IMG/VR virus record: IMGVR_UViG_3300044627_003496
Coordinates: 1-22,471 of that record
Strand: one strand, 5' to 3'
Source of the DNA: a virus
Length of the DNA stretch: 22,471 nucleotides
Shown here: in pieces, positions 4,301 to 19,586 of the stretch
Layout of the letters: every line of letters begins with the position of its first letter
Numbering within the stretch: position 1 is the stretch's first letter
The notes under the pieces: generated by a model
Database searches by the model: none
Told to the model about the DNA's origin: nothing
The model's input: the letters and a program-made list of their open reading frames with translations, nothing else
Program-made: the position numbers and the translations under genes

Positions 4301-4760
4301 ATTCGGAGATTTAGAAAATTATAAATCGGTCAGCGATGCTATCATTTATAATGCAGCAGAGTTTAAACCTTTGTTTGGCAATAAAGCCAGACCTGAACTT
4401 CAAGCTACATTTAAAATTATTAAAAATTCAAATATTAACTTAACTGACAGCGAAATCCGAAGCCAAGTACTTGCGTATATCAATGCATTTTTTGCAGTGG
4501 GTAACTGGGATTTTGGAGAAACATTTTATTTCACTGAATTGGCAACATATATCCAACAAGGTCTAGCGCCAAACATCAGTAGTATTATTATTGTGCCCAA
4601 CAGTACTAGTCAAACATATGGATCATTACAACAGATCAACAGCGAACCTAACGAAATTTTAATAAGCTGTGCCACAGTAGAAAATATTGAAATTATTAGT
4701 GCTATTACCGCAGCACAATTAAACATACAAAATTTAACGGTAAATACTATAATTAATTAA
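1347..4760 (+). CDS. gp6: Baseplate wedge protein gp6, enlarged form
   Basis: The protein has 1,137 residues, against about 660 in T4 gp6. The N-terminus has the pattern seen in gp6 of T4-like aquatic phages: 'NADFQSYDFQTLRKTMLDYL', 'YIALIDLIAFLGQSLAFRTDLNARE', then 'LKLAKLISYVPKRNQ'. The baseplate-J-like core is visible as 'DLVFGDG' (residues 339-345) plus 'PVGSFITYFRT', and 'QNRMVTGEDYNTFPYANYS' from residue 426. The C-terminal gp6 signature 'VGNWDFGETFYFTEL' is centred on W1054. gp6 dimers join neighbouring wedges into the inner baseplate ring and expand during sheath contraction. The extra ~480 residues lie mainly at about 110-330 and 470-950. They include an acidic loop, D816-I-N-N-D-G-V-P-D-D825, resembling a dockerin/thrombospondin-3 calcium loop. 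It has its own late promoter and a strong ribosome site, and it ends 8 bases before the giant gene. Confidence 0.93.
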   Translation: MALTTRQSSLLVNQDWTILYETFRNADFQSYDFQTLRKTMLDYLRIYYPENFNDFIESSEYIALIDLIAFLGQSLAFRTDLNARENFIDTAERRDSVLKLAKLISYVPKRNQTANGFIKFDSVQTTERLQDSNGIDLTNLIVNWNDNGNVNWYEQFITIINAALPTNQQVGKPSNSKTIAGVLNAEYNINLPPGTLPVFGYNTQIENAALNFEVVSGTSVDESYIYEAAPAPGRPLNVIYKNDNLGNASNNTGFFFYFKQGNLQTQTFRFPESLPNNLASINFDNINNSDVWLYEIGSLGNIGQAWNQIPSVNGVNIIYNNNAAQKSYQVNTRAGDQIDLVFGDGTFAAIPVGSFITYFRTSTGLSYKITPDEMTNIRLTIPYISRAGRLETLTIVASLKYTVANAIPRESITEIKTKAPQLYYTQNRMVTGEDYNTFPYANYSTISKVKAVNRTSSGISRYLDIFDTSGRYSSTNIFSEDGILYKEDADSSFSFTFGTTADINRIIENQILPSIRSKSLQHFYYEYFNRFSLTNLYWNRSTAGSGSSTGYFLDFPSSGNKVAVGTGVVGNNRYLTEGCIIVFSPGPGNYFNSANEIVALPSSGQVPQNGQPLLYVSITNLVGNGNQGNLSNGEGPVKLSLNLPSNAQAITVIPTFSNTFTTEFVSKLIGLISNYSEFGIRYDQNTQTWQTISAQDLNLTDPFSQIYQGSTSGQNLDASWLLSFTVSNSIYTVQIRGLSYIFESTQETKFYFDNRIKIFDPITGFTVNDSVNILKVNGDPDTGQPLTENVLWYIYDQIAESDGYVDASKVLVTYSDINNDGVPDDPDIFNTVVQPDVNNDPPTKFVFFEKTYGYNSFVTFTPIPSSAVVIVGNRLEVIPNINNYIEGQIFYAYEEETFYVLTIDLTTRSLTESNDYIARVGRSSLYFQYKHNAPGSRRIDPSPSNLIDLYVLTKEYETEYRAWVLDTTGTVQEPEKETGESLKLAFGDLENYKSVSDAIIYNAAEFKPLFGNKARPELQATFKIIKNSNINLTDSEIRSQVLAYINAFFAVGNWDFGETFYFTELATYIQQGLAPNISSIIIVPNSTSQTYGSLQQINSEPNEILISCATVENIEIISAITAAQLNIQNLTVNTIIN

Positions 4761-4768
4761 TCTTAAAG

Positions 4769-7700
4769 ATGCCAATTACTAAAACAATAAATTTTCTTCC
4801 AGCGGTATTCCAGTCTGATACCAACAAGCGGTTTTTAAACGCTACTCTTGACCAACTAATGACAGAACCAAATTTGGTTCCCATTAATGGTTATGTTGGA
4901 AGAAAATTTGCGCCCGGGTTCAAAGGAATCAACACGTATGTTAAAGAGCCTACTGCACTTCGTGCAGACTATCAACTTGAGCCCAGTATAGTCGTAAAAA
5001 ATAAAGAAACAGGGGAAGTGGATTTTCATACTACCTATCCTGAAGTTTTACAAAAAATAGATTTTTACGGCGGAAAGATTAGTAATCAAGACAATCTGTG
5101 GGAAAGTGATTTTTACAGTTATAATCCAAGAATAAATGCTGATGCATTTATTAACTTTAGTCAATACTATTGGCTACCAAATGGTCCAGAATCAGTTGAT
5201 GTATTTGCAGGCGAAGCAGATATGTTACGTACATTTAATATCTATGCCGAAAATGGTCTACAAGTCTATAATGTAAGTGGATATAACACTGCGCCTAATC
5301 CCGATATTGTATTGGCCCGCGGAGGAAATTACACATTTAAAGTTAATCAACCTGGCAAGCCTTTTTGGATCCAAACAAATCCAGGATTAAGCGGACTAAG
5401 TCCTCAAACTAATTTAAGTACAAGGCAAGTGTTGGGTGTACAAAATAACGGAACAGATGTTGGCACTATAACTTTCTTTGTTCCAGACCCAACAGCACAA
5501 GATTTCTATATTACTATGCCAACAGTGCAAACAGTAGATTTAGTAAGCACAATAAGCTATGCTAATTTACAAGGCAAACTGTTGTCTGACATTAAAAATA
5601 ATTACAGCGGCATTGACGGCCAAGTTGCAAATTTAAACGGAAAATATTTAATTTTTCCTACATTTAATTCAGACTCTGATTGGGTCGCTAACTCAACCGC
5701 AGTACCAATCGGGCAACGATATGGAATTTGGGAGATTGTATTAACACCTGCAGGAGCAGATTTCGTAATTAATCTAGTTTATTACTTACCTATACCTAAT
5801 GAAAATAAAGTGTTAGTCCTGTCAGGCATTAGTTATGGTAATACGGAATGGTATACAAATTCTGAAAATAAATTAGAACAGATACCAGTAATTACTGCTC
5901 CTTTGAATACATTGTATTATCAAGATGGATCGGATGCAAATCAAGTTGGTACGATCAGGCTTATAGATTCTAATAATAATATCATTAACATAGATGAAGA
6001 AGTAATTGGTAAAACAAATTATATTAGCCCCAATGGTATTGTTTTTACCAACGGACTAAAAATTAATTTCGACAACAGCGTTACGCCTGCATCTTATCAA
6101 AATAAAGAATATTATGTTGACGGAGTAGGAACAGGAATTCGATTAATTCCAGTGTCAGATTTAGTAGTTAACCAAGCACAAGCAAAATCGAATTATGACC
6201 CTGGCAACAAATTTGTATTGTATGCAACTGCTAATCTTAATTTGGCAGAAGATCAACTTACTATAACCACAACTAATTTCCCTGACGGTGTGAACGTAAA
6301 AGTTGGCACTTTTCCTAACAGTGTTAATACAAATTATATCGTCGCTCAAGATCTCAAATTGAAATATCCGTATAGACCCGGACTGAATGATCCTGGAGAA
6401 CACGACAATCTTACATACTCGTCTGACGTAATCGGGGTCACATTACCAGGAATTCTTATCAATGGTGTAAGCAATGGTGCTTCGGTTCCTGGATTAGACG
6501 GCAGTAAATGGAATTATGATACTACTCAGGTGCTAATAAATGGGCAAGACAGCTACGGCGGTTATCCATTGGAAAATGGTCGCTATGTTTATACAAATTC
6601 TAATTTTATTACAGCCAATGCATGGGGAAATGTATCGGGCTTTACTAATGGGTATTTAGATCCTACAACAAATCATAGTAAACTTATAGGATTCGCGGCA
6701 GACGGATATCCTATTTACGGACCGTTTGGGTATTCAAATCCAATAAACGCCGGCAGTTCTATTATTCGCATGGTGAGTTCATACGAATCTACCAATGACG
6801 GTCTATTTCGGCCCGTGCCACAAACTGTAACTATCACTGCTGATGTAATCAACAATAATTTAATTACTGTATCTAGTACGAATGGATTAAATCCTGGCAT
6901 GAGAGTAACAGTTAACTCTGGTGGGCTTGAGTCTGGCAGTGTATGGATTATCAATAACGGTCTAAAAACAGCAACAGGATTGTCGCCGTTCTCGGGCACA
7001 GCCAGCCAAGTGCAATTAAGCAGCAATGTTACATTAACAGCTGGTACAACTTTAACATTTGAATTTTTAGCAGGAGCCTTCATCGAAGATTATTCTTATG
7101 TAGAAGGCAGTGGCACATTGGATCAGTATAATGGCCGCTTTTGTGTAACACCAGAATTTCCAAATGGAACTTATGCATATTTTACAACACAGGCCAGCAA
7201 CGGATCTCCAATTTATCCTTATATAATTGGCAGAGCATTTTATGGAAGTACAAGCATAGACACCAATACCAGTTTGTCTACGCCTGACTATATTGTAATC
7301 AGTAGAGCTAGTAGGGATCTTAATCCGTGGACCAGAAGAAATCGTTGGTTTCATAAAGACATTATTGAATTAACTAGTTTATACAATAATACTCCGCAAA
7401 TTTTTGATTCAGAACAGCGAGCGAAAAGGCCCATAATTGAATTTGATGCAGATTTACAGTTAATTAATTTTGGAAAAACAGCCAAGCCGCCGGTTGATAT
7501 ATTTGATACAGTCTACACAAATGCATTTTTATCAATTGAAGGTAAAACTTCTATTTTCGTGGACGGTATTAATCTAGTGCAAGGAATGCGTGTAATCTTT
7601 GCTGCTGATCAAGATCCATTTGTAAGAAATAAAATTTGGGAAGTGACGCTGGAAAATGTATCTGGTAACCCGTTAGGCTCAGACATAATTCATTTAATTC

Positions 7701-10700
7701 AAGTGGACGTAATAGAAGAATTTAATACGGTCAGTGTTTTTAATGGTGTAGTTAATAACGGTAAAAGTTTTTACTTTCTAGGTGACAGTTGGGTCGAAGG
7801 TCAGAGTAAAACTAGCATAAATCAACCACCGTTATTTGATGTATTTGACACTGACGGAATTAGTTTTTCTAATCAAATAAAATATCCAGTTATTAACTCG
7901 GCTACTCAATTTTTGGGCACAAAGATTTTTAGTTATAAACTTGGTACCGGTACACCTGACCCGGTGCTTGGGTTTCCTTTAAGCTATAAAAATTTTAATA
8001 ATATTGGTGATATACAGTTCGAAAATAATTTCGATGTCGAGTCGTTCAGTTACGGAATCGACAAAGTTGTGTATACTAAAAAAATAGATTCAGGTTTGCT
8101 GTATAAAAACAATGCAGATGCTAGTATTACCAAACTTAATGTATGGACTAATGTTAATACTAACACTAGACAAATGCAAGATATACCATTTACGTATGAT
8201 GGTATAGATAACACATTCAAAATCGACGTCACTCCAGAAGTGGCAACTGTTAAACCTAACTTGTTGGTCTATGTCAATTTTAAAGAAATATCAATTAACG
8301 ATTATTTGGCATATACTGTACCAGATGGCATTTTAATTGTTATAAAAAGAAATAAACTACAAATAAATGATAGAATTGATATTCTTGTCTACAGTAAAAA
8401 TACCAGCAATCTTGGATTTTATCAAATACCCGATAATTTAAATTTAAATGCACAGAATAGGACGCTAGCAAGTCCAACATTGGGAGAACTACGTAACCAC
8501 ATAGGTTCATTGAGTAGAAATAGTTTATATTTTGTTGGAAATTATCCTGGGGTGAGTAATCTTAGAGATTTGTACATCGAAAATCAGTCTGGTACTATGT
8601 TGCAGCAAAGCGCACCAGTTAGCTTTGCTGCCATGTTCTTAAGCGATGAAAAGTATAATTTTGCATCTGGATTAATTAATGCTCAACAAGAATATACAAG
8701 ATTTAAAAATAAGTTTATAAACATTGCTAGTAACAGCAATCAGATTAACCCTAGTGATCCTGTTGGAGCAGTAGACTACATTATTAAACAAATAAATTCA
8801 GTTAAAGATAAAACTTTTCCATGGTACTACAGTGACATGGTACCGTACGGAGATAATAAAAATGTAATCACATACAACATTTTTAATCCGCAACAACGTA
8901 ATTATGAAATTACAACTATCTTTTCAAATGAAACATTAAGCAACAAGTCTATTTTAATTTATTTGAACGGCAGTCAACTATTATACGGACGTGATTATGA
9001 ATTTTTAGTAACAGGCCCTGGTGTCGGTATTAAAAACAATATAACATTAGCAGTTGGTAACACTCTTACTATTGTTGAATATCAAGACACAGACGGTAAT
9101 TGGATTCCTGAAACACCTTCAAAATTAGGACTTTATCCAAAATTTACACCAGCAATTTATACTGACATAACATATACAGAACCTCAACTTATGATCAGAG
9201 GTCATGACGGTAGTCTAACGCCTAGCTTCGGTGATTTTAGAGATAACATTGTTTTAGAATTAGAAAAGCGTATATACAACAATATTAAAGTTCAATATAG
9301 CAATAAATTAGTATCTCCTTACGATTCTATTCCGGGCAAATTTAGAGATACTGGATTTACGATATCCCAGTATAATAATTTATTATCTCGCTTTTATCTG
9401 CAATGGGCCAGTGTTAATAATTTAAATTATGTAGAGAATACTACGTATCAAAATGATGCACCTTTTAGTTATAATTACAGTACTGCGTTAGACATTGTTG
9501 ATGGTCAAATTCTACCTGGTTCTTGGCGTGCATGTTTTCAGTATTTTTATGATACTCAACGCCCCAATACTTCACCTTGGGAAATGCTGGGATTCAGTGA
9601 AGAACCAGACTGGTGGAGATCTACTTACGGTCCTGCTCCTTATACCTCGGGTAATAAAATTTTATGGGACGATTTAGAAGCCGGATATATTGCGGCCGGG
9701 CCTAGGGTTGGTACCGACCAAAAATTTGCGAGACCAGGCCTAAGTAAATTTATTCCAGTAAATGAAAACGGACAATTGTTGCCACCTATCGGTCTTTTAA
9801 CTAATAAGTATGATTCCACTCAGTTCAATGACAATTGGAATATGGGACAGTTCAGTCCAGTTGAAACTGCTTGGAGAAATAGCAGTGAATATCCGTTTGC
9901 AGTGCAATATACTGCTGCAATAATTAATCCTGGAAAATATTTTGCATACGGTATTACAACAAACAAATATCGATACAACCCTGATTTAGATCAATATTTG
10001 ATAACAGGGACAAATAACAGAATTACACAGGAAGATATCGACGTTAATGGGTATGTGAACTCTTCAGGGGATATATCCAGATCTTCAGGGTATTTAAATT
10101 GGATCAGTGATTATCAAGTAACTCGTGGAGCAACAAACAAAACTCCATTGTTAAATTTTGTTAGAGACTATTCTATTCAATTGTCTTATAGAATGGCAGG
10201 GTTCAGCGGCAAAAATTATTTAAAAATATTAGCTGAACAAAATAGTCCAAACAGCACTAATGAAACTATTATTATTCCAGATGATAACTATGCGTTAATA
10301 TTAAACAAGTCTACTCCTGTTTTTAATTCTAGGTATAGTGCTGTGATCATAGAAAAAACTGGCAACGGCTTTACTATTTCTGGATATGATAGCGCAAGGC
10401 CGTATTTTACAATTGTTCCACCTTCGCAGACTGGCGATTATCTACTAGTTACATCAGAAGGGCAAACTGTAAAGTACTTCAATGAATTTACGAATTTTAA
10501 AATTAATATACCATACGGTACTGAACTAACTACCTTACAACAAGTTGCAAACTTTATAAGTGGATACGAACAGTATTTGCAATTGCAAGGTTTTAAATTT
10601 GAGTACTATGACGAAACACTGGCCCAAATTAAAAATTGGCAATTAAGCACTAAAGAATTTTTATTCTGGGTACAGCAAGGATGGACAAATAACAGTGTTA

Positions 10701-13700
10701 TTGTATTAAGTCCTGCGTCTAATAATTTAAAATTATTCAATAACACCGCTGTAGTGGATGGAATCAATAATACATTCTACGGCACGAAAGTGTTAAATCA
10801 AAACTATAAAGTTTTGAATACAGACAATTATACTGTAACCAGAGATAATAACACATTTGCTCTATCATTAACTAGTACCACAGACCTAATAGGATATGTG
10901 GACCTTAATTTGGTACAATACGAACATGTTTTAATTTTTGATAATAAGACACAGTTCAATGACATTATATACGATCCTATAATGGGACAACGCCAGTATC
11001 GTTTAAAACTTATCGGTTCTAAAACAGGGGAGTGGACTGGAACATTATCTGCATCAGGATTTATTTACAACCAACCAGGTGTAGCTGCTTGGAGACAAAA
11101 TAAAGATTATTTACAAGGCGACTTAGTTGAATACAAGAGTTTTTATTATACTGCTAGTAAAAATCTGCCAGGGTCAACTGAGTTTAAATTCAGTGATTGG
11201 TTGCCTGTAGATAAGAATAAAATTAGAACAGGATTATTAAACAACTTTGCTCGAAATGCAGGCATTGGGGAAACATTTTATAATGTTGATAGAGTCAATT
11301 TGGAAAGCGAATTCGATCAGTACGCTTTGGGGCTAATTGGTTATAGAAATAGAAATTATTTAAATGATTTAGGTCTAGATGATACTAGCCAAGTTAAATT
11401 CTATCAAGGATTCATTAAAGAAAAAGGCACGTTAAATGCTATTAATGCCTTAGGTAAAGTTAGCTTCAGCGGTCGTCCAAGCGATGTGACTATCAGCGAA
11501 GATTGGGCATTTAGAGTTGGATCTTATGGCAGTACTGGAACAAATCAATCTATAGAATTGGTCCTTGACGAAAGATACGTATTAAGCAATCCCACTAGCT
11601 TAGAAGTTCGATCGAATAATTCTGTATTGTTTAGCTCTCTTTACAATGATAGTCAAGGACTGTATAAAACTAGTGTAGTTCCATGGTCGCCACCATTTTT
11701 AATAAACAGGACAATTGATAGCGATTACAGCGATGACATTCAAACTGCGGGTTATGTTAGCGTCGACGACATCGACTTTACACTATTTGATTTAACCAAT
11801 GTTTCTACATTAAATGTAGACATATCTAATATAACTGCTGGATCGACAATCTGGATAGCAAAAGATTATGAACAAAATTGGAATGTGTACAGAGTATCAG
11901 ATTCTGAATCCAATGTTATAAGTTTAAGCAATGCACTGAATACAAGAGTTCAGGTAACTACTAACAAATCACACGGGTTAGTAAAAAACGATACCATTTT
12001 ATTAACTGGAGTAGACAAATTTACTGGATTTTATAAAGTTCAAAGTATTGTTGGATTAACTAGTTTTATAATTGAATTTACGGGTGATCTCAGAGGATTT
12101 AGCACATTTAACCAGACTGGCCAGTTGTATAAATTAATCAGTATGAAAACTGAAAATCCTCTCGGTATTACCGAATTAACTCCGAGACTGGGATGGAGTG
12201 TTAACAATAAAGTATGGGTAAATTCTTATAATTCTAATAGTGATTGGGCAGTTTATAATAAAACAAATCCATGGAAATTAACTACAGCATTACAAAAAGG
12301 AACATTAGAAAATAATTTTCAATTTGGTGCAGCAGTAAATCTTGCAAGCGACGATAATTTTGCAGTAATCGGTCAACCTGGATACAATGGTAATGTTGGT
12401 GCTATTACTAACTATGTAATTAACTTTAACGGAATTCTAGTAGAAGATGTGACTCTTACTTCCAGCGCAAATGCTACAGTTGGATTGGGGTCTGTTATCG
12501 AAAGTGGAAATGCTAAGGTAATAACAGGAGCACCATCCAGCGGTAATGGTATCGGTTATGTTTTTATATACGAAAGAGAAAACATCGGAACATTGTCTGA
12601 CGTACAAATACTGTCGCCGGCCAGCAGTAACATTGGGAGTTTTGGAACTAGTATTGCTATTAGCGCAGATGATAACTGGTTATATATTGGCGCCCCAGAT
12701 GACGATATTGTTTACATATATGGGTATGATAACACTGTGCCTGATCAAGACGTAGTAACATTAACTCCAAACGGATCAGTTAGTTCGTTTACTCTGCCAT
12801 ATGTCCCAGTGAGTGCAGAAACCATTTATGTTCAAGGATCGTCGGCAACATATGTTCCCCACAGGGATTATACTGTAAGTTCGTCGACTATTACATTTAC
12901 GTCACCGCCGCCTGCAGGAACAATAATTATTTCCCAAGGGCCAGGTTATAATCTAGTAGGAACAATTTCAGGCAATGCAGGTAGCCAATTTGGTTATAGT
13001 TTAAGTGCTACCGTCGACGGGTCGCAAATCATGATTGGTGCCCCTTTAGAAGATGTAACAGCCAATATCAGTGGTAATATTACCACATATACAGGTTCTG
13101 GTGCAATACATTTATGGAACAGATCAATTAATAATTTTATTGTTCAAGATGAGTTTACTGTTACATTCGACGCCATTGCACCTATTACCAATTATACAAG
13201 AGTATATATTGATAACATAGAAAAATTTGTCGGGATAGACTGGTATGTCAGTAACAGTACACTGAATTTAATAACATTTTACAGCCCACCTGGACAAAGT
13301 AAAATATTAACTATAGAAACAAATGTATTTCATCCAATTCAAACTATAGTACCAAAGCAGCCATACACTGATCAACAATTTGGTTATAGTGTTGATATAT
13401 GCACAAACAGTTGTAGTTTATATACAGGGGCTCCTTATCAATCTCAGGTCAATTTATATAACGGGGCAGTATATCGATTCCTGAATCAGGGAAAGGTATA
13501 CGGTGAAATAGTAGGAACTAAAGCTAACGCTATAGTAAATAGTGGAGATTCTATTAGAATTAATAATTACGCCGTACAATTCACCGACACATCATTGTCA
13601 AGTGTAGTTAATGCTATTAACAATGTAAATGCACTCGGTGAACCTATTGGTCCTAAGATTCCAGGTGTTACCGCAAGTATTGAAAATAATAAATTAAAAT

Positions 13701-16700
13701 TAGTCAGTGATTCGGAAGTTACATTTGACAAATTGAATATATTGCCCGGCGTAGGAACGGCAATTTCAGATTTAGGACTAGATATTTTCCCCGAAGTGGA
13801 TATCATTTATAATAATTCAACTAAATCATATGATTACTTTGGAAAACTTGTCAAAGTAAACAACAACAGTGATATACTAGTGGTGGCCAGTGACATTGCA
13901 GCAACATTGCAATCTACTGTTTTTGATAACTCTAAGACGTACACACCAAGTCCTACGACGTTTGACGGAGAATTGACGATCTTCAGTGAACCTGTAGATG
14001 ACAGCGGTGCAGTTTGGATTTATTCATATTTGCCAAATAATGTATCTACTATAGAATTTCCTGGTATATTTACTTTCATACAGCAGTTAACTCCTACCAC
14101 TACAAACGATGGATTAAAAACAAATGATAGATTTGGTAGTGCTATATCTATTAGTAAATATGAGTTGATTGTTGGATCTAAGAATAACAAACAGTTAGCA
14201 TTCAATGGTGGAAGAGTTTATAAATTTGCTAACCCAACAAATCTATTAGGGTGGGATGTACTTAGAAGTCAAGAACCTACTGTTGATATTAATGGTATTA
14301 TTAAGTCATATACCTATAATGCACTAACACAAACAGTTCAATATAACTTAGATTATATTGATCCAGCAAAAGGTAAAATTCTTGGCCTAGCTGAGCAGGA
14401 ACTTACTTATAAAATTGATTATGATCCTGCTATCTACAACAATGCTAGTGTCGACAATGTAAGTGTTAACAATAACCTTTATTGGACTGACCAACAAGTA
14501 GGACAATTGTGGTGGGATTTAAGCACCGTTAGGTATATTGATTATGAGCAAGGTAGTATTAAGTACAGAACCACAAACTGGGGACGAGTATTTCCAGGCA
14601 GTAGCATAGACGTCTACGAATGGGTAGAAAGTTTATACCCCCCTAGTCAGTATGTTGCAAACGGCGGGGATGGAGAACCCAAATACAACGGTAATGGTGC
14701 ATACGTAACACTAACCTACGTAGATCCTGCTACAAATTTTGCCACAGTGAAATATTATTTCTGGGTAAAAAATAAAACAACTGTGTCCACTAATCAATTT
14801 GGAAGAACTATTCCTACCACGACTGTTGCAAGTTATATTGAGTCTCCTAAAAATAGCGGAGTGAAATATTTTGCCGCAGTGAGAAACGATTCGATTGCTC
14901 TTTATAATATGGTCAACGAAGCAGTGGGCAGGGATATCATATTTCATTTAGATTATGCAAAATTGTTAAACAGTAACATCATTCATAATGAATATGCATT
15001 GTTATCGGCCACTAATAACAAGTCTGAAAATATTCCAAATAATATATACAATAAATTATTAGATAGTGCCAGCGGGATTGATAGATTTGGTAATCCGGTT
15101 CCAGACCCAACACTTGCAGTGCAAAATAGATATGGCATTGATATCAGGCCTCGACAAAGTATGTTCATTAATAGAAATGAAGCTATTCGAGAAATGGTTC
15201 TCTATGTTAATTCTATCTTTGACTTAAATGTTATTAGTCAAGGTTATGATTTAACTAGACTAAGCGAAGGTGAGCCTGAACCAACTCCTAATTCTGGAGC
15301 TTATGATTTAAAAGTAGCTAACCTTGAAGAATTAAGTTATGTAAATATTGAAATTCTACCAATGGGCTACAAGGTATTAGTCCAGAGTGATAGTTCTGTG
15401 GATAATTTATGGACTATCTATATTAAAGATGGCGTAGTCGACAATTGGCAACCAAACACTCGATATTTAACAAATACAATCGTCAACTATAACGGCATCA
15501 CGTATACTGTAAATCAAACTATTACAACTGGTGCAACATTTGATGTAAACGATTATACTTACTATCAAGTACAAAATGAATGGAATTTAAATAGAGTACA
15601 AAGTTATGCAACCAGTGAATACTGGCAATATAAAGATTGGTATGCTCAAGGGTTTGATAGAACAGTCAAACCAACTTATATCATTGAAACTAGTGCTCAA
15701 TTAAATGATTTGACTCTAAGATCAAAAGATCTTGTTAAAATTAATAACAATGGTCAAGGCAAATGGTTCTTAATTCAGGTATATCCTAACACCGTGGTCA
15801 CGGTCGGGATTCAAGATGGTACCATTGAACTTAAGAAAAATCTTTACGCACTAGAAGAATTTGGGCTTGGTTTTGACGCAGATAATTTTGACACTACAAG
15901 ATTTGACCAAAACCCTGGAATCGAAACTCGACAGATTATTCAAACTCTTAAAGATGATATTTTTATTGATCAACTTGATTCTGAATTCTTAAATTTATTC
16001 TTTGTATTCATTAATTATATACTAGATGAACAAAAGTATGTGGATTGGTTATTTAAAACTAGTTTTATTAATGTATTGCAAAAGATACAGGGATTAAATC
16101 AACCTGCAATCTATATCAAAGAAAATCAAGAATTCTATAAACAATACATAGAGGAAGTTAAACCTTACAAAACTACTCTTCGAGAGTATGTAGTAGACTA
16201 TCAGGGTTATGACAACTATAACAGTTATGTGTCTGACTTTGATGTTCCGCCGACTTACGATAGTGTATTAAAAACTACAAGAAGTCCCAGCGGCGAATTT
16301 ATTCAAGATGCAAGATTGTTACAACAACCTGAATATGCCAATTGGTTATCTAATTATGCTTACAGTATCTCTTCTATAGATATAATAGATGGCGGCTCAG
16401 GTTATACCTTACCTCCAATTATTACAATTACAGGCAGTAGGAACGGAAACAATGCAGTTGCCCGGGCACTAATAACTGACGGAGTGCTAACAAAAATAAT
16501 ATTACTATACCCCGGCAGTGATTATGTTACAACGCCAGTGGTTACTATAGACGGCGGTAACGGTACAGGAGCTATCGCCAGAGCTAATTTAGTTAATGGA
16601 TTAGTCCGAAATGTTAAAACTACTCTGGTGTATGACAGATATACATATTCTACTACAATCGTAGATTGGAAACCAGAAACTACGTTCACACAAGGTACAA

Positions 16701-18790
16701 TAATTGATTACGCCGGTGTTGCGTACATCGTAAATCAGACATTTACTTCGCCTACAACATTCAATTCGAATGTTCTTAGTTTTTTAACAGTTTATCCTAT
16801 TGATAATATTAACAATGCAAATGATAGAATTCAAGCGTATTATCAGCCCGAATTAGGACAGCCTGGAAAAGATTTGTCATTATTGCAATCAGGCATCGAT
16901 TATCCCGGGGTAAAAGTAGAAGGCCCAACATTCAGCGATAACGGAGGATTCGGCGGATCAGGTCCTGAGCCCCCGCTACCTGGCATTAGTGCTGCTGATG
17001 GTTTTGATGCTACTCTATTCGATCCTTTGGAATTTGATGAAAACGGAATTCCTATTTTAAGTGATGCCATCTTAGATGCTAAAATAACCAGCACTTTCGA
17101 TGATATCACCTTAGGGACAAAACCCGAAGACATTATTGTTGATGGGGGACCTTTTGTTTATAGTTACTTCACTGAGTGGAAAGCTAATAGTTATTATGAC
17201 AAAGGCGATTTAATTTCTTATAACGATAAAGTATGGTATGTGGTTACACCAACTACTACAGGAAATGTATTTTCTACAGCCAATTTAACCATTTATAATG
17301 TAGGGCCATATGCAAGTCATGCTCCCGAAGAAATGGTTCCCGGAAGAGTATATGATACTTTAGATATGACGGTTACTACCATAGCAACGGATCCTACTGC
17401 TAGTTATTATACTAACTGGTCGACAGCTGGGGGAATACAACTTGATTATATACAAATTATTGATCCAGGAAGCGGATATTCTCCATCAGACATCGGTGTA
17501 ACGTTAACAGGCGGTTCATATTTTACACAAGCACAAGCACAGGTAATATTGAACTCAAACGGATCTGCGGTATCATTCCAAGTAGTTAATAATGGTGGAG
17601 GATATGATACTACACCCGAAGTAATAATAACAGGAGCCAATACATCTCCGATAATTGCTACGGCGATAATGAAATTAAGCGTTTCTCCAAACGGAAATGC
17701 ATGGCCGATGATGTCTTACCGAATCTTTAAAGATATGAATGATAACTTTACATATCTCAGAGAGGATGGTGCAAGTACCACTACATTGGCCGCAAATTTA
17801 AGTTTGACGGACACTACTATTCAAGTAACAGATGCCAGTAAGTTAGCCACTCCGTCTCCCAACGGAGGGCAACCTGGGGTTGTATATATTAACGGTGAAA
17901 GAATTACTTATTATTCTAAAGACTTATCAACTAATACTTTGGGAAGAATTCGCAGAGGAACCGGCGGCACCGGAGCTAAAAATCATTTTACAGGTAATGT
18001 GGTACTTGACGGAAGTCAGAATCAAGTAATACCTGAGTCTGGAAATTATGTTTGGTATGCAAGATCGCAGGGACCTGGTACAATTAATGTAAATGTTTAC
18101 AGTAGTACATTAGAAGGTGTGGGCACTACATTCACTACGTTAACTCCAGGGACACAAATATTTGCCGGTACTAATGAAGAAAATGCAGTAGAGTCAACTT
18201 TGGGAAATTCTAGTACAAGTTCTACTTTTACTGGTCAACAGTTAATAGGTACTATCAGCAGTGTATTAAGTGATACAGTTGCACTATTACAAGTTACAAA
18301 GAGAAATCCAAATGCACCAGAAGGAATCCCGGTTGAATGGGCATATATTTCTGCGAATAATACACCGTATTTTGTAGCTGCAAACATATCTAATGTCACC
18401 GTTCGATATACGGGAAATATTACAGCAAATAACAGCAGTAATATTGTTACCGGAAATGGTACAATATTCTTAGCCGAATTAAATGTTGGCAATGATTTAT
18501 ACGATAATGGTGGAAACTTAATAGGCACTATTAGTAATGTAGTAAGTAATACTTCTGCCTATATCAGCAGTAACTCTTCGGCAACTCTAACAAACGAAAG
18601 ATTCACTACATACTATACGTTTGAGGCAAATGTTGCTTATGTACAAACCAATAGTTGGTACAGTTTGGGCAATTCTGCTCAGGCAAATGCTACCGGAGTG
18701 CTAGGAAATACAACAGCCACAAATGGACAAGGATTGTTTAACGCCAATACTTTACCAATTAGTTTCTTAAAACAAGGATTGCAAGGGTAA
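4769..18790 (+). CDS. Giant modular baseplate/virion structural protein (gp7 position), 4,673 aa
   Basis: This is one unbroken frame of 4,673 codons, roughly 500 kDa. The N-terminus ('FLPAVFQSDTNKRFLNATLD', then 'VGRKFAPGFKG') resembles large structural proteins that follow gp6 in T4-like aquatic phages, so I infer the wedge-initiator (gp7) slot; T4 gp7 has 1,032 residues. Modules in order: YHYH-like domain 559-828; beta-sandwich-like units about 1140-1211 and 1373-1445; 'PWEMLGF..EPDWW' at 1603-1616; CBM5/12-like unit 2105-2148; 'FYQGFIKEKGT' at 2211; FG-GAP propeller 2519-3154; 'GQLWWD' at 3245-3250; 'RPRQSMF' at 3460; 'DWLFKTSF' at 3759; further W/Y units at 3560, 3967 and 4137; GSGY pairs at 3875-3945 and 4232-4300; 'VVYINGERI' near 4372; GxGTxF repeats at 4452 and 4562. 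No signal peptide or membrane segment is seen. The ATG follows gp6 by 8 bases without a strong ribosome site, suggesting coupling to gp6. The coding call is certain; the wedge role is inferred from position and similarity. Confidence 0.9.
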   Translation: MPITKTINFLPAVFQSDTNKRFLNATLDQLMTEPNLVPINGYVGRKFAPGFKGINTYVKEPTALRADYQLEPSIVVKNKETGEVDFHTTYPEVLQKIDFYGGKISNQDNLWESDFYSYNPRINADAFINFSQYYWLPNGPESVDVFAGEADMLRTFNIYAENGLQVYNVSGYNTAPNPDIVLARGGNYTFKVNQPGKPFWIQTNPGLSGLSPQTNLSTRQVLGVQNNGTDVGTITFFVPDPTAQDFYITMPTVQTVDLVSTISYANLQGKLLSDIKNNYSGIDGQVANLNGKYLIFPTFNSDSDWVANSTAVPIGQRYGIWEIVLTPAGADFVINLVYYLPIPNENKVLVLSGISYGNTEWYTNSENKLEQIPVITAPLNTLYYQDGSDANQVGTIRLIDSNNNIINIDEEVIGKTNYISPNGIVFTNGLKINFDNSVTPASYQNKEYYVDGVGTGIRLIPVSDLVVNQAQAKSNYDPGNKFVLYATANLNLAEDQLTITTTNFPDGVNVKVGTFPNSVNTNYIVAQDLKLKYPYRPGLNDPGEHDNLTYSSDVIGVTLPGILINGVSNGASVPGLDGSKWNYDTTQVLINGQDSYGGYPLENGRYVYTNSNFITANAWGNVSGFTNGYLDPTTNHSKLIGFAADGYPIYGPFGYSNPINAGSSIIRMVSSYESTNDGLFRPVPQTVTITADVINNNLITVSSTNGLNPGMRVTVNSGGLESGSVWIINNGLKTATGLSPFSGTASQVQLSSNVTLTAGTTLTFEFLAGAFIEDYSYVEGSGTLDQYNGRFCVTPEFPNGTYAYFTTQASNGSPIYPYIIGRAFYGSTSIDTNTSLSTPDYIVISRASRDLNPWTRRNRWFHKDIIELTSLYNNTPQIFDSEQRAKRPIIEFDADLQLINFGKTAKPPVDIFDTVYTNAFLSIEGKTSIFVDGINLVQGMRVIFAADQDPFVRNKIWEVTLENVSGNPLGSDIIHLIQVDVIEEFNTVSVFNGVVNNGKSFYFLGDSWVEGQSKTSINQPPLFDVFDTDGISFSNQIKYPVINSATQFLGTKIFSYKLGTGTPDPVLGFPLSYKNFNNIGDIQFENNFDVESFSYGIDKVVYTKKIDSGLLYKNNADASITKLNVWTNVNTNTRQMQDIPFTYDGIDNTFKIDVTPEVATVKPNLLVYVNFKEISINDYLAYTVPDGILIVIKRNKLQINDRIDILVYSKNTSNLGFYQIPDNLNLNAQNRTLASPTLGELRNHIGSLSRNSLYFVGNYPGVSNLRDLYIENQSGTMLQQSAPVSFAAMFLSDEKYNFASGLINAQQEYTRFKNKFINIASNSNQINPSDPVGAVDYIIKQINSVKDKTFPWYYSDMVPYGDNKNVITYNIFNPQQRNYEITTIFSNETLSNKSILIYLNGSQLLYGRDYEFLVTGPGVGIKNNITLAVGNTLTIVEYQDTDGNWIPETPSKLGLYPKFTPAIYTDITYTEPQLMIRGHDGSLTPSFGDFRDNIVLELEKRIYNNIKVQYSNKLVSPYDSIPGKFRDTGFTISQYNNLLSRFYLQWASVNNLNYVENTTYQNDAPFSYNYSTALDIVDGQILPGSWRACFQYFYDTQRPNTSPWEMLGFSEEPDWWRSTYGPAPYTSGNKILWDDLEAGYIAAGPRVGTDQKFARPGLSKFIPVNENGQLLPPIGLLTNKYDSTQFNDNWNMGQFSPVETAWRNSSEYPFAVQYTAAIINPGKYFAYGITTNKYRYNPDLDQYLITGTNNRITQEDIDVNGYVNSSGDISRSSGYLNWISDYQVTRGATNKTPLLNFVRDYSIQLSYRMAGFSGKNYLKILAEQNSPNSTNETIIIPDDNYALILNKSTPVFNSRYSAVIIEKTGNGFTISGYDSARPYFTIVPPSQTGDYLLVTSEGQTVKYFNEFTNFKINIPYGTELTTLQQVANFISGYEQYLQLQGFKFEYYDETLAQIKNWQLSTKEFLFWVQQGWTNNSVIVLSPASNNLKLFNNTAVVDGINNTFYGTKVLNQNYKVLNTDNYTVTRDNNTFALSLTSTTDLIGYVDLNLVQYEHVLIFDNKTQFNDIIYDPIMGQRQYRLKLIGSKTGEWTGTLSASGFIYNQPGVAAWRQNKDYLQGDLVEYKSFYYTASKNLPGSTEFKFSDWLPVDKNKIRTGLLNNFARNAGIGETFYNVDRVNLESEFDQYALGLIGYRNRNYLNDLGLDDTSQVKFYQGFIKEKGTLNAINALGKVSFSGRPSDVTISEDWAFRVGSYGSTGTNQSIELVLDERYVLSNPTSLEVRSNNSVLFSSLYNDSQGLYKTSVVPWSPPFLINRTIDSDYSDDIQTAGYVSVDDIDFTLFDLTNVSTLNVDISNITAGSTIWIAKDYEQNWNVYRVSDSESNVISLSNALNTRVQVTTNKSHGLVKNDTILLTGVDKFTGFYKVQSIVGLTSFIIEFTGDLRGFSTFNQTGQLYKLISMKTENPLGITELTPRLGWSVNNKVWVNSYNSNSDWAVYNKTNPWKLTTALQKGTLENNFQFGAAVNLASDDNFAVIGQPGYNGNVGAITNYVINFNGILVEDVTLTSSANATVGLGSVIESGNAKVITGAPSSGNGIGYVFIYERENIGTLSDVQILSPASSNIGSFGTSIAISADDNWLYIGAPDDDIVYIYGYDNTVPDQDVVTLTPNGSVSSFTLPYVPVSAETIYVQGSSATYVPHRDYTVSSSTITFTSPPPAGTIIISQGPGYNLVGTISGNAGSQFGYSLSATVDGSQIMIGAPLEDVTANISGNITTYTGSGAIHLWNRSINNFIVQDEFTVTFDAIAPITNYTRVYIDNIEKFVGIDWYVSNSTLNLITFYSPPGQSKILTIETNVFHPIQTIVPKQPYTDQQFGYSVDICTNSCSLYTGAPYQSQVNLYNGAVYRFLNQGKVYGEIVGTKANAIVNSGDSIRINNYAVQFTDTSLSSVVNAINNVNALGEPIGPKIPGVTASIENNKLKLVSDSEVTFDKLNILPGVGTAISDLGLDIFPEVDIIYNNSTKSYDYFGKLVKVNNNSDILVVASDIAATLQSTVFDNSKTYTPSPTTFDGELTIFSEPVDDSGAVWIYSYLPNNVSTIEFPGIFTFIQQLTPTTTNDGLKTNDRFGSAISISKYELIVGSKNNKQLAFNGGRVYKFANPTNLLGWDVLRSQEPTVDINGIIKSYTYNALTQTVQYNLDYIDPAKGKILGLAEQELTYKIDYDPAIYNNASVDNVSVNNNLYWTDQQVGQLWWDLSTVRYIDYEQGSIKYRTTNWGRVFPGSSIDVYEWVESLYPPSQYVANGGDGEPKYNGNGAYVTLTYVDPATNFATVKYYFWVKNKTTVSTNQFGRTIPTTTVASYIESPKNSGVKYFAAVRNDSIALYNMVNEAVGRDIIFHLDYAKLLNSNIIHNEYALLSATNNKSENIPNNIYNKLLDSASGIDRFGNPVPDPTLAVQNRYGIDIRPRQSMFINRNEAIREMVLYVNSIFDLNVISQGYDLTRLSEGEPEPTPNSGAYDLKVANLEELSYVNIEILPMGYKVLVQSDSSVDNLWTIYIKDGVVDNWQPNTRYLTNTIVNYNGITYTVNQTITTGATFDVNDYTYYQVQNEWNLNRVQSYATSEYWQYKDWYAQGFDRTVKPTYIIETSAQLNDLTLRSKDLVKINNNGQGKWFLIQVYPNTVVTVGIQDGTIELKKNLYALEEFGLGFDADNFDTTRFDQNPGIETRQIIQTLKDDIFIDQLDSEFLNLFFVFINYILDEQKYVDWLFKTSFINVLQKIQGLNQPAIYIKENQEFYKQYIEEVKPYKTTLREYVVDYQGYDNYNSYVSDFDVPPTYDSVLKTTRSPSGEFIQDARLLQQPEYANWLSNYAYSISSIDIIDGGSGYTLPPIITITGSRNGNNAVARALITDGVLTKIILLYPGSDYVTTPVVTIDGGNGTGAIARANLVNGLVRNVKTTLVYDRYTYSTTIVDWKPETTFTQGTIIDYAGVAYIVNQTFTSPTTFNSNVLSFLTVYPIDNINNANDRIQAYYQPELGQPGKDLSLLQSGIDYPGVKVEGPTFSDNGGFGGSGPEPPLPGISAADGFDATLFDPLEFDENGIPILSDAILDAKITSTFDDITLGTKPEDIIVDGGPFVYSYFTEWKANSYYDKGDLISYNDKVWYVVTPTTTGNVFSTANLTIYNVGPYASHAPEEMVPGRVYDTLDMTVTTIATDPTASYYTNWSTAGGIQLDYIQIIDPGSGYSPSDIGVTLTGGSYFTQAQAQVILNSNGSAVSFQVVNNGGGYDTTPEVIITGANTSPIIATAIMKLSVSPNGNAWPMMSYRIFKDMNDNFTYLREDGASTTTLAANLSLTDTTIQVTDASKLATPSPNGGQPGVVYINGERITYYSKDLSTNTLGRIRRGTGGTGAKNHFTGNVVLDGSQNQVIPESGNYVWYARSQGPGTINVNVYSSTLEGVGTTFTTLTPGTQIFAGTNEENAVESTLGNSSTSSTFTGQQLIGTISSVLSDTVALLQVTKRNPNAPEGIPVEWAYISANNTPYFVAANISNVTVRYTGNITANNSSNIVTGNGTIFLAELNVGNDLYDNGGNLIGTISNVVSNTSAYISSNSSATLTNERFTTYYTFEANVAYVQTNSWYSLGNSAQANATGVLGNTTATNGQGLFNANTLPISFLKQGLQG
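6443..7252 (+). other. YHYH-like domain inside the giant protein
   Basis: Residues 559-828. The segment contains 'HSKLIGFAADGYPIYGPFGY' (G641 to Y655), the hallmark of YHYH-domain proteins. After a ~90-residue inserted beta-rich segment follow 'GTLDQYNGRFCVTPEFPNGT' and then 'YAYF' at 802-805, where the family normally reads YHYH. Both diagnostic histidines are therefore replaced (A803, F805). The fold appears kept while the proposed metal- or ligand-binding signature is lost. The domain assignment is by motif recognition only. Confidence 0.75.
11081..11212 (+). other. Carbohydrate-binding-like (CBM5/12-type) W/Y module 1
   Basis: Residues 2105-2148 read 'AAWRQNKDYLQGDLVEYKSF', then 'YYTASKNLPG' and 'SDWLPVDK'. 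The spacing W-x6-Y-x2-G-x2-V-x-Y-x3-Y...W matches the short aromatic-rich CBM5/12 chitin-binding fold, which is common in phage tail proteins. W2108, Y2114 and W2144 are candidate ligand-stacking residues. No ligand can be deduced from the sequence. Confidence 0.6.
12323..14230 (+). repeat. FG-GAP-type beta-propeller repeats (six recognisable blades)
   Basis: Residues about 2519-3154. Six units start with an F-G(-x-S/A) turn at F2519, F2625, F2741, F2871, F3024 and F3122. Most are followed by a 'IGAP'-like turn ('VIGQPG', 'YIGAPDDD', 'MIGAPLED', 'YTGAPYQS', 'VVASDI', 'IVGSKN'). Most then have a closing strand such as 'GAIHLWNR', 'GAVYRF', 'GAVWIYSYL' or 'GGRVYKFA'. This is the integrin-alpha/FG-GAP blade pattern. 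Spacing is uneven (106, 116, 130, 153 and 98 residues) because extra modules sit between blades. The last two blades have degenerate GAP turns. A six- or seven-bladed propeller is likely. Confidence 0.8.
15446..17314 (+). repeat. Three further W/Y carbohydrate-binding-like modules
   Basis: Starts are at W3560 ('NWQPNTRYLTNTIVNYNGIT'), W3967 ('DWKPETTFTQGTIIDYAGVA') and W4137 ('EWKANSYYDKGDLISYNDKV'). Each has the W-x-(P/A)-x3-(Y/F)-x-x-(G/N)-x-(I/L)-(V/I/S)-x-Y-x3-x-(Y/W)-x-V pattern, followed by a Thr-rich strand and an 'FxxxxxxxY' ending. They are related to the unit at residue 2108 and to each other, but divergent, so this is old duplication rather than recent DNA repetition. The units are separated by other modules. 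Confidence 0.6.
16391..16600 (+). repeat. GSGY beta-repeat pair A in the giant protein
   Basis: Residues about 3875-3945. Two tandem copies: 'GGSGYTLPPIITITG' and 'PGSDYVTTPVVTIDGGNGTG'. Each is followed by an Ala-rich strand ('NAVARALITDGV', 'AIARANLVNGLV'). The copies are ~40 residues apart. This short repeat family occurs in bacterial and phage surface proteins and probably forms beta-hairpins. The second copy has Asp in place of the second Gly. Confidence 0.65.
17462..17659 (+). repeat. GSGY beta-repeat pair B in the giant protein
   Basis: Residues about 4232-4298. The copies are 'DPGSGYSPSDIGVTLTGGSY' and 'NGGGYDTTPEVIITGANTSP', again ~42 residues apart and each followed by an Ala-containing strand ('AQAQVIL', 'IIATAIM'). 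They have the same period and order as pair A about 1,060 bases upstream. The two pairs flank W/Y modules, so the whole block (GSGY pair plus W/Y unit) may have duplicated. Confidence 0.6.
18119..18580 (+). repeat. C-terminal GxGTxF repeats of the giant protein
   Basis: Two units begin at 'GVGTTF' (from V4451) and 'GNGTIF' (G4562). Each is followed by an L/G step ('LTPGTQIF', 'LNVGNDLYDNGG') and then 'LIGTISSVLSDTVALL' or 'LIGTISNVVSNTSAYI'. The period is about 111 residues. The pattern is common in beta-rich phage tail proteins. They follow a 'PGVVYINGERITYY' and 'RRGTGGTGA' segment at about residues 4368-4400. Confidence 0.65.
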
Positions 18791-18811: not shown

Positions 18812-18982
18812 ATGAACACACAGAAGACCATGATAAATAACCATACAAACACTGATTTGGAACAAAAACTCGAAAAATCTGTTCCAGAAAAACCAAACGA
18901 ATCTACAGGAATTTATATGCGTGGTTTTGTAAAAATTACAGATCCAGAATCTGGTGATGTAATAGTAGAAACTGGAAATTAA
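18812..18982 (+). CDS. Small 56-aa protein resembling the N-terminus of the next gene product
   Basis: A complete 56-codon frame between the giant gene and the 197-aa gene. It has a charged, probably helical first half ('DLEQKLEKSVPEKPNE') and a second half with 'MRGFVKITDPESGD'. The latter aligns with 'IQGHIKIWDPATGE' of the next protein: over 24 aligned residues I count 7 identities (G, K, I, D, P, G, N), with many conservative changes. The protein stops exactly where the longer family continues with 'NAIHYENMS'. An alternative start at 18830 gives 50 residues. It ends 10 bases before the next ATG, so the two are probably co-translated. Function unknown. It could be a truncated duplicate or a genuine small partner. 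The frame is not a shadow: no other gene occupies this stretch. Confidence 0.7.
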   Translation: MNTQKTMINNHTNTDLEQKLEKSVPEKPNESTGIYMRGFVKITDPESGDVIVETGN

Positions 18983-18992
18983 TGGATCACTT

Positions 18993-19586
18993 ATGCTAGA
19001 TAAAACAAATACAATGATACAAGGACACATTAAAATTTGGGATCCTGCAACCGGCGAAATTTTCAGAGATAAACCCAACGCCATTCATTATGAAAATATG
19101 AGTGAAGCGTTAGCACAAAGCATTGCGAACAAAGGTATTGGGTATATACAAAACATGGCGTTCGGAAACGGAGCAACTGCGGTAGATAGTACTGGTGTTA
19201 TTACATATTTGCCTACTAATACTTTTGGACAAAATGCTAGTTTGTACAACCAAACTTACAGTAAAATAGTCGACAATACCAGTGCATTAAACACGGATCC
19301 AGCAAGAAATTACATCGAAGTAAGACATACACCAGGTTTGATCTATACTGATATTTTTGTAAGTTGTCTATTAGATTACACAGAACCAGCTGGACAACAA
19401 GCATTTGACAACAGTGCAACAATGAGCGGAACCTACGTATTTGACGAATTAGGATTAATCAGCGAAAGCGGAAAATTACTGACTCACGTAATTTTTCACC
19501 CAGTGCAAAAAGCACTTAACAGACTTATTCAAATTGATTACACTATCAGAATTCAAACTTTGACCAATTTGAGTACGAATTTGTAA
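18993..19586 (+). CDS. Conserved virion structural protein, 197 aa
   Basis: Residues 11-49 carry 'GHIKIWDPATGEI' followed by 'NAIHYENMSEALAQSIANKG', then 'NMAFGNGATAVDSTG' at about 54-68. I recognise these as features of a structural protein family in T4-like phages of aquatic bacteria; its exact place in the particle is not known to me. The C-terminal half ('YIEVRHTPGLIYTDIFVSC', 'GTYVFDELGLISESGKLLTH') looks beta-rich. It sits between the giant baseplate protein and the fibre genes, which fits a baseplate-periphery or fibre-attachment role (inference). The ATG at 18993 has a weak GGA six bases upstream. A second in-frame ATG at 19014 lies right before the conserved block and is a possible alternative start. 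Confidence 0.85.
   Translation: MLDKTNTMIQGHIKIWDPATGEIFRDKPNAIHYENMSEALAQSIANKGIGYIQNMAFGNGATAVDSTGVITYLPTNTFGQNASLYNQTYSKIVDNTSALNTDPARNYIEVRHTPGLIYTDIFVSCLLDYTEPAGQQAFDNSATMSGTYVFDELGLISESGKLLTHVIFHPVQKALNRLIQIDYTIRIQTLTNLSTNL

Follow-up and report, generated by a model that had tools for sequence, protein, structure and literature searches.

Gene order and coding integrity

The DNA analysed here (the window) is a viral stretch of 22,471 nt, and the genes described below all lie on its plus strand. It opens with the C-terminal part of a baseplate hub/tail lysozyme gene (positions 1–915; phrog_27932, E 2.3e-33), which in the related contig L004 is complete, with 718 aa, and is a homologue of PA5oct gp350. 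Next come a gp25-like baseplate wedge protein/sheath initiator of 125 aa (924–1301; PF04965, E 8e-13) and a gp6-like baseplate wedge protein of 1137 aa (1347–4760; phrog_10646, E 2.7e-299), the latter giving P 43–47% and E 0.0002 against T4 gp6 in hhalign. Eight nucleotides separate the stop of the gp6-like frame from the start of a giant gene (4769–18790) for a virion structural protein of 4,673 aa (517 kDa), which we propose as a gp7 equivalent. Downstream lie a gene of 197 aa (18993–19586), a homologue of PA5oct gp357 (37% identity, E 1.9e-34), and a gene of 550 aa (19627–21279), a homologue of PA5oct gp358/gp359 (45% identity over 147 aa to gp359).

The order hub, gp25, gp6, giant is syntenic with PA5oct. 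A longer array of PA5oct homologues can be followed in L004: gp347, gp348 (a gp53-type ORF), gp349, the hub with lysozyme, gp25, gp6, the giant, gp357, gp358/359 and gp360. The gp25 gene was found in eight of eight relatives. In 93 of 94 records a gp6 match ends within 200 nt of the giant on its upstream side (95 records were examined after omission of L104, a copy of RaK2; the same isolate is counted twice in places, as with RaK2 in L071/L191, apparently 121Q in L075/L202 and CBB in L105/L203). SCTP-2 is the sole exception, with gp6 ∼92 kb from the giant homologue.

The giant ORF has no internal stop in 4,673 codons; the same ORF with shuffled bases has ∼348 in-frame stops (mean of 20 shuffles). 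The whole 22,471-base window recurs at 99.98% identity in two contigs, L004 and L006. Six relatives of the same length, 90–95% identical to the giant, yielded dN/dS values of 0.050–0.061 (two of them, L005 and L009, have near-equal values and are possibly near-copies). When the giant was divided into segments, the six relatives gave values of 0.03–0.11, none of them higher. An assembly artefact is ruled out by the copies in two contigs together with the dN/dS values. The giant is thus one long gene under strong constraint, and the uninterrupted 14-kb frame directly behind gp6 reported in the preliminary description is real. The predicted mass is 517.4 kDa, and a putative six copies would amount to 3.1 MDa.

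A family of giant virion proteins with inserted modules

Judged by sequence similarity, the giant belongs to phrog_10938, a family of giant virion structural proteins known from PA5oct, RaK2 and other jumbo phages; it matches the family profile with E 0 and 1,134.7 bits in three stretches of conserved core. Members include PA5oct gp355 (3,857 aa), RaK2 gp465/ORF070w (3,326 aa), 121Q gp582 and proteins of Atu_ph07, Phosso and XacN1 (ORF325). Identity of the giant to the forms from PA5oct, RaK2, 121Q, Phosso and SCTP-2 is 25–29%. PHROGs labels the family 'head and packaging', and the annotations in the records consulted read 'hypothetical', 'structural' or 'virion structural protein'.

In tblastn searches of the phage collection, each of two C-terminal queries returned 57 records (sets that include GenBank/RefSeq doubles and were not matched to each other record by record). 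The records found include PA5oct, RaK2, 121Q, CBB, Munch, Atu_ph07, Phosso and SCTP-2, and XacN1 joins the family by profile (E 5.6e-73). The N-terminal query returned 505 records, many of them cyanophages; in three cyanophage rows the match is confined to residues 492–851, the YHYH region. The viral contig collection yielded 68 loci, and the 60 complete giants (61 complete ORFs less the one picked in L201, which is gp6, L201 containing no more than the beginning of the giant) span 3,313–4,975 aa. The PA5oct protein scanned against the viral contigs gave no match. Foldseek with the viral library produced 20 matches at E <= 0.001, including the Atu_ph07 structural protein and YHYH proteins of uncultured phages. 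Several of these 20 matches are nameless, and the weaker rows include cyanophage proteins.

Relatives of the giant are found in virions. PA5oct gp355 is annotated with ESI-MS/MS in its record, as are gp25, gp6 and gp357–gp360, the first of the latter being the homologue of the gene that follows the giant in the window. In the phAPEC6 protein table gp245, listed with 381.88 kDa and 17 unique peptides, stands beside gp244, a 'baseplate wedge' (PMC7247149); because its size and gene order fit, we take gp245 as a homologue of the giant. That such a protein is a precursor cleaved after translation into several virion proteins we regard as very improbable. The size and modular layout would suit a precursor, and in RaK2-type records the next gene, on the opposite strand, encodes a ClpA-like protease; the window has no such gene, and the single 381.88-kDa entry for phAPEC6, which may be a predicted mass only, speaks for an intact chain.

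The core of the giant is homologous throughout phrog_10938. In five jumbo forms (PA5oct, RaK2, Phosso, SCTP-2 and 121Q) 2,060 residues of the window protein are aligned in all, in blocks 1–135, 839–2099 (with gaps), 2151–2374, 3183–3498 and 3615–3832, plus low-identity stretches beyond. Absent from at least one of the five are residues ∼160–837 (including YHYH), much of 2490–3180 (with the FG-GAP propeller), 3554–3599 (with CBM5/12) and parts of the C-terminus. Occupancy was counted in 43 giants, drawn from an alignment of 74 by requiring a length of >3,200 aa and coverage of the C-terminal region; close copies of the window giant are among them. The 2150–2290 core is occupied in all 43, the propeller stretch in 25, YHYH in 16 and the CBM at 3556 in 14.

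Along the chain, the conserved N-terminal core aligned in all five jumbo forms (residues 1–135; 4769–5173) is followed by the YHYH module (residues 551–811; 6419–7201), matched in two Pfam stretches (PF14240, E 6.2e-29). YHYH is predicted in PMC7824862 to be a metal-dependent hydrolase whose triad consists of histidines and an aspartate; an active site in the window module is doubtful because its region holds only two histidines, 545 and 636. A long block of conserved core (residues 837–2106; 7277–11086) leads to a CBM5/12-like stretch, copy a (residues 2107–2140; 11087–11188), for which the Pfam E-value of 0.011 is below cut-off quality and a profile match to the deacetylase 4ny2 has E 5.9e-4. 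After the candidate first half of a gp7-like core (residues 2150–2290; 11216–11638) comes an E1-FCCH-like barrel at approximately residues 2376–2470 (11894–12178), mapped roughly from models of the RaK2 homologue, in which it scores Z 5.4 at 2.5–2.6 Å with 75–77 aligned residues, under the 'clear' level of the tool. The FG-GAP (integrin-like) propeller (residues 2519–3170; 12323–14278; FG-GAP_2, E 1.7e-9 and 6.5e-10) has seven blade-like repeats by eye and a profile match to integrin alpha-4 (E 0.0019).

Conserved core resumes at residues 3181–3540 (14309–15388), again occupied in 43 of 43 giants, and continues at 3601–3860 (15569–16348) after CBM5/12 copy b (residues 3559–3589; 15443–15535), which matches PF02839 above cut-off (E 3.2e-7). 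GSGY-type beta repeats (residues 3863–3937; 16355–16579; phrog_460, E 2.9e-10) follow, with repeats of this type at 3876, 3916, 4234 and 4276. Two further CBM5/12-like copies are c (residues 3967–3995; 16667–16753; Pfam E 0.0077, below cut-off) and d (residues 4136–4164; 17174–17260; Pfam E 2.3e-5, just below it). A small beta module at ∼4336–4403 (17774–17977) is shared with cyanophage gp7 (hhalign P 57–60% to residues 55–130 of P-SSM2-type gp7).

Profile searches against the PDB with residues 2100–2640 returned 16 sequences matching either the CBM-like stretch (deacetylases, chitinases and two phage tail proteins) or integrins; with residues 837–2110 and 3170–3870 no sequences were returned at E <= 5. 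The kinds of module that reach the Pfam cut-off are three (YHYH, CBM_5_12 and FG-GAP_2), and two more, the GSGY-type repeats and the E1-FCCH-like barrel, are seen by weaker means, so that the earlier count of at least six kinds holds only if weak ones are included. That the giant carries adhesion and propeller modules which the 3,326-aa RaK2 form lacks is borne out: the window form is ∼1,350 aa longer and contains YHYH, the propeller and extra CBM5/12 inserts, whereas in the RaK2 form Pfam matches nothing at E <= 0.01.

Signals of a possible gp7-like core

The giant follows gp6 as T4 gp7 (1,032 aa) does; it is, however, 4.5 times longer and has neither a Pfam Gp7 domain nor a phrog_964 match. 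The gp7 families (phrog_964; Pfam Gp7_helical, Gp7_5th and Gp7_6th) did not match it, while T4 gp7 itself was matched. BLASTP of the giant against 13 T4 structural proteins gave chance matches only, and an HMM of T4 gp7 put none of 74 giants above the inclusion threshold (best E 0.2).

Whole-record searches covered T4, P-SSM2 and eight jumbo-type records, namely complete PA5oct and RaK2 and six contigs of relatives. phrog_964 matched T4 and P-SSM2 (E 8e-5) and none of the eight jumbo-type records. A separate gp7, which would speak against the assignment, was thus detected in none of the eight; since the contigs may be fragments, only for PA5oct and RaK2, whose records are complete, is this absence firm, and then in the sense of 'not detected'. 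PF23786 matched P-SSM2 alone, under the cut-off; as it misses T4 too, the lack of a match in the jumbo records carries little information.

Comparison with cyanophage gp7 gave weak signals. With its inner insert omitted, the cyanophage gp7 core had a best E of 0.0012 (P 19%) among 91 search windows along the giant, and residues 2101–2355 hold the three best of the 91 (score up to 27.3 vs 17.3 for the next). With the full cyanophage piece the C-terminal beta module came best (P ∼60%) and the core second (P 11%). For the T4 gp7 core alone, residues 2150–2290 were not among its five best search windows. When an HMM of the giant core was run against 806 ORFs from T4-like and cyanophage loci, a non-gp7 ORF ranked first (E 0.28). 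Among the top 15 rows (14 ORFs), 10 are cyanophage gp7 proteins (E 0.3–1.7), aligned at the KG motif; these E-values are non-significant, the 10 are mutually related and no T4-type gp7 appears in the top rows. By eye, the region shows an LP-type helix at 2155 and the KG motif at K2219–G2220. Such signals favour a gp7-like core at residues 2150–2290 and are suggestive rather than proof.

In T4 gp7, Pfam places the helical domain at 643–689, domain V at 766–861 and domain VI at 920–1012. Domain V is thus flanked by the KG stretch (738) on one side and the HP stretch (884) on the other, motifs that were again located by eye. The second half of a correspondingly split core in the giant is proposed at ∼3754–3811 (EEVKPYK at 3795), within the conserved block 15569–16348, on the basis of alignments with RaK2 models. 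This half has no sequence match to T4 gp7, and a profile of the joined halves performed against T4 gp7 no better than joins with random segments. Our gp6 profile, run against the giant for a shared domain, gave nothing.

The RaK2 homologue was modelled twice with AlphaFold2, once over residues 1291–2490 (pLDDT 67) and once over 1458–2462 (pLDDT 72); for the second model 48 of 52 listed rows were used, near-identical copies having been omitted beforehand. The core helices have pLDDT of about 47–61. In some of the structural alignments the aligned range reaches from the KG helices as far as a segment ∼900 residues further on. With the first model these include 7aeb_G (Z 3.8, 88 aligned), 7b5h_AH (Z 3.5, 107 aligned) and 5hx2_E (Z 3.6, 69 aligned), a chain of the T4 baseplate that we assign to gp6 from its length; the second run added 9gtp_1G (Z 4.3, 79 aligned). 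Four of the five listed split-core rows are chains of contractile baseplates (Z 3.5–4.3) and the fifth, 3kxw, is an unrelated ligase (Z 3.8); these rows were chosen by eye, after the fact, among the best 50 of each run, and all have Z <8. The alignments, read from their first and last aligned residues only, suggest that the two halves may pack together in the model. T4 gp7 is not among the best 50 rows of either VIA-align run, which does not exclude it. Another row from a T4-like baseplate, 9f4b_FA (Z 4.5, model residues 109–597), does not fall on the split core and is not included among the five.

The gp6 and gp7 types are reported to share a trifurcation-type domain in XM1 and in TssF/TssG (PMC10457771, PMC6300606), so the split-core rows cannot separate gp6 from gp7; with gp6 already present at the locus, gp7 is reached by elimination. 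Structural matches to wedge proteins are weak, neither plainly present nor plainly absent: wedge-type rows appear at low Z, and Foldseek against the PDB returned nothing at E <= 0.001.

An unrelated giant with a fold of its own could have taken over the gp7 position and the role of wedge scaffold. The empty Foldseek result and the lack of a significant sequence match to T4 gp7 would both be expected of such a non-homologous replacement. Against this, two profile tests and the HMM ranking all place the KG-region signal in register with cyanophage gp7, and most of the low-Z rows that fall on the split core are baseplate chains; we consider replacement unlikely.

The giant could also be a peripheral adhesin or fibre anchor that merely follows gp6, the true gp7 being small or diverged and encoded elsewhere. 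Its adhesion-type modules and the position of the SCTP-2 homologue away from gp6 would agree with this, and a gp7 orthologue as small as the 242 aa given for XM1 gp17 in PMC10457771 would be easily missed. Against it, the core persists in the RaK2 form, which lacks any Pfam module at E <= 0.01, homologues of the fibre-type genes of PA5oct lie downstream, and no gp7-family match was obtained elsewhere in the eight jumbo-type records; we give this possibility little credence.

The preliminary description had further suggested that the giant may cover some of the roles of gp8–gp12. None of 12 segments of the giant exceeded P 10.3% against the profiles of gp8, gp9, gp10, gp11 and gp12. The gp8 family (phrog_438) was matched in T4 and P-SSM2; elsewhere it hit only giants or other ORFs on the middle repeat stretch of the profile, with no gp8-family match in the RaK2 and PA5oct records. 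A single-protein search with T4 gp8, which lacked a positive control, matched nothing anywhere. Domains like the N-termini of gp9/gp10 occur in other genes of several relatives, e.g. at the start of a 377-aa ORF behind the G007 giant (this family also matches 6 of 14 control genomes), and the record of PA5oct gp358 carries the note 'T4-like gp10'. The suggestion is thus not upheld. A fusion that also bears gp8, gp10 or gp11 functions would explain why phrog_438 is unmatched in RaK2 and PA5oct; given the segment comparisons, the repeat-stretch nature of the phrog_438 hits in giants and the gp9/gp10-like N-termini in other genes, we find it scarcely credible.

A proposed wedge scaffold and its known counterparts

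We favour, with a probability of roughly 0.6, the reading that the giant serves a jumbo myovirus of the PA5oct/RaK2 type as its wedge scaffold, equivalent to gp7. In each of six wedges its core would connect a pair of gp6 chains, and the contact with gp6 would be made by a domain split into two pieces, ∼2150–2290 and ∼3754–3811. The order of elements would be that of T4 gp7 (LP helix, KG helix, inserted domain), with the domain V loop grown to ∼1,460 residues. YHYH, the FG-GAP propeller and CBM5/12 would sit on the outer face and make low-affinity contacts with surface glycans before irreversible attachment; we infer the contact with gp6, the six copies and glycan binding by CBM5/12 and the propeller. 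The inner wedge set speaks for a wedge role, since gp25, gp6 and a gp53-type match are all seen in relatives. The gp53 family was matched in 10 of 10 records, weakly in the eight jumbo-type ones (E 2.7e-6 to 1.6e-4), and also in 4 of 14 control genomes. Counting against a wedge role are the SCTP-2 homologue far from gp6 and the modest pLDDT of the core. Of the original proposal of a wedge scaffold in the gp7 slot, the slot, the presence of relatives in virions and the lack of another detected gp7 stand, whereas gp7 homology and wedge structure have weak signals behind them.

A giant gp7 does exist. The P-SSM2 gene behind gp6 is annotated as gp7, encodes 5,195 aa and carries YHYH, and a T4 gp7 core can be detected in its N-terminal part (P 88.7%, E 2.6e-6). 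P-SSM2 and S-CAM1 (with a 3,032-aa protein in the gp7 slot) share with the window the order gp25, gp6, giant and a similar size; P-SSM2 gp7 and the window giant both have YHYH and thousands of residues in this slot, and cyanophage giant gp7 and the window giant have in common the small beta module and a weak core similarity. The differences are that a T4 gp7 core and a phrog_964 match are detectable in P-SSM2 gp7 and not in the window giant, and that an annotated gp8 adjoins the giant in P-SSM2 and S-CAM1, whereas PA5oct and RaK2 give no gp8-family match. A structural protein of cyanophage ACG-2014d, of 6,817 aa, probably occupies the gp7 slot as well. In contractile systems described in PMC10457771 and PMC6300606, XM1 gp17, P2 gpI and TssG form the third wedge member with two copies of the gp6 type, and we liken the giant to them by description; XM1 gp17 has 242 aa (PMC10457771) compared with 4,673 aa in the window.

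The giant is therefore less exceptional than it had first seemed: its family is known, and a larger annotated gp7 is that of P-SSM2. A giant protein in the gp7 slot and the virion membership of the family are likewise already known. The assignment of phrog_10938 to gp7 and the split core may be new; we found no paper in the open literature that names the family as gp7. If true, the assignment would explain what a very large protein of RaK2/PA5oct-type phages does, and would tie the jumbo phages of enterobacteria and Pseudomonas to the giant gp7 of ocean cyanophages. The split core is the one exact place where the gp7 claim is checkable.

A more far-reaching picture, which we rate as rather improbable, would hold for the whole lineage: the gp7 trifurcation domain would be split by an insert of ∼800–1,460 residues whose outer decorations, on touching the cell surface, pull directly on the (gp6)2–gp7 joint, coupling attachment to contraction in one chain without the gp8–gp11 relay of T4, and loop growth would be a general route to host contact in marine and jumbo phages.

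According to a statement in a 2020 paper (PMC7029224), VrlC takes the place of gp7 in pelagi- and cyanomyophages. In S-CAM1 the 3,032-aa protein is separate and lies between gp6 and gp8, and a 'virulence associated protein' is encoded behind gp8; if the latter is VrlC, this layout sits badly with that statement.

Gene order around gp6

The giant gene of the window (4769-18790, + strand; 4,673 aa) belongs to phrog_10938, and in the annotated records examined, with the exception of SCTP-2, the phrog_10938 gene is situated directly behind gp6. The giant homologue of SCTP-2 (15977-27400) is preceded by a 3,096-aa gene and lies ∼92 kb away from the gp6 homologue, the sole gp6–giant separation seen among the 94 records compared. 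The PHROGs category of phrog_10938, 'head and packaging', contrasts with its position right behind gp6.

In the cyanophage S-CAM1 (13582-28264) the order is gp25, gp6, a 3,032-aa protein, gp8 and a 'virulence associated protein'. VrlC is said in PMC7029224 to replace gp7 in pelagi- and cyanomyophages; if the 'virulence associated protein' is VrlC, this statement sits badly with the S-CAM1 gene order.

Modules of the giant protein

The YHYH module region (residues 545-805) contains two histidines (545 and 636), whereas three are predicted as metal-binding in the YHYH site, according to PMC7824862.

An E1-FCCH-like barrel was found in AlphaFold2 models of the giant homologue of jumbo phage RaK2 (Z 5.4), the window equivalent being residues about 2376-2470. 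The annotated gp7 of cyanophage P-SSM2 (5,195 aa) has a weak, below cut-off Pfam match to E1-FCCH at residues 975-1029 (E 0.006). Perhaps this barrel is a tail module common to both proteins.

A short downstream ORF

The giant is followed by a short ORF (18812-18981) and then by the 197-aa gene (18993-19586, + strand), a homologue of PA5oct gp357; by eye, the end of the short ORF, MRGFVKITDPESGDVIVETGN, resembles the start of the 197-aa gene, IQGHIKIWDPATGEIFRDKPN. The matching position in PA5oct is occupied by the 41-aa gp356.
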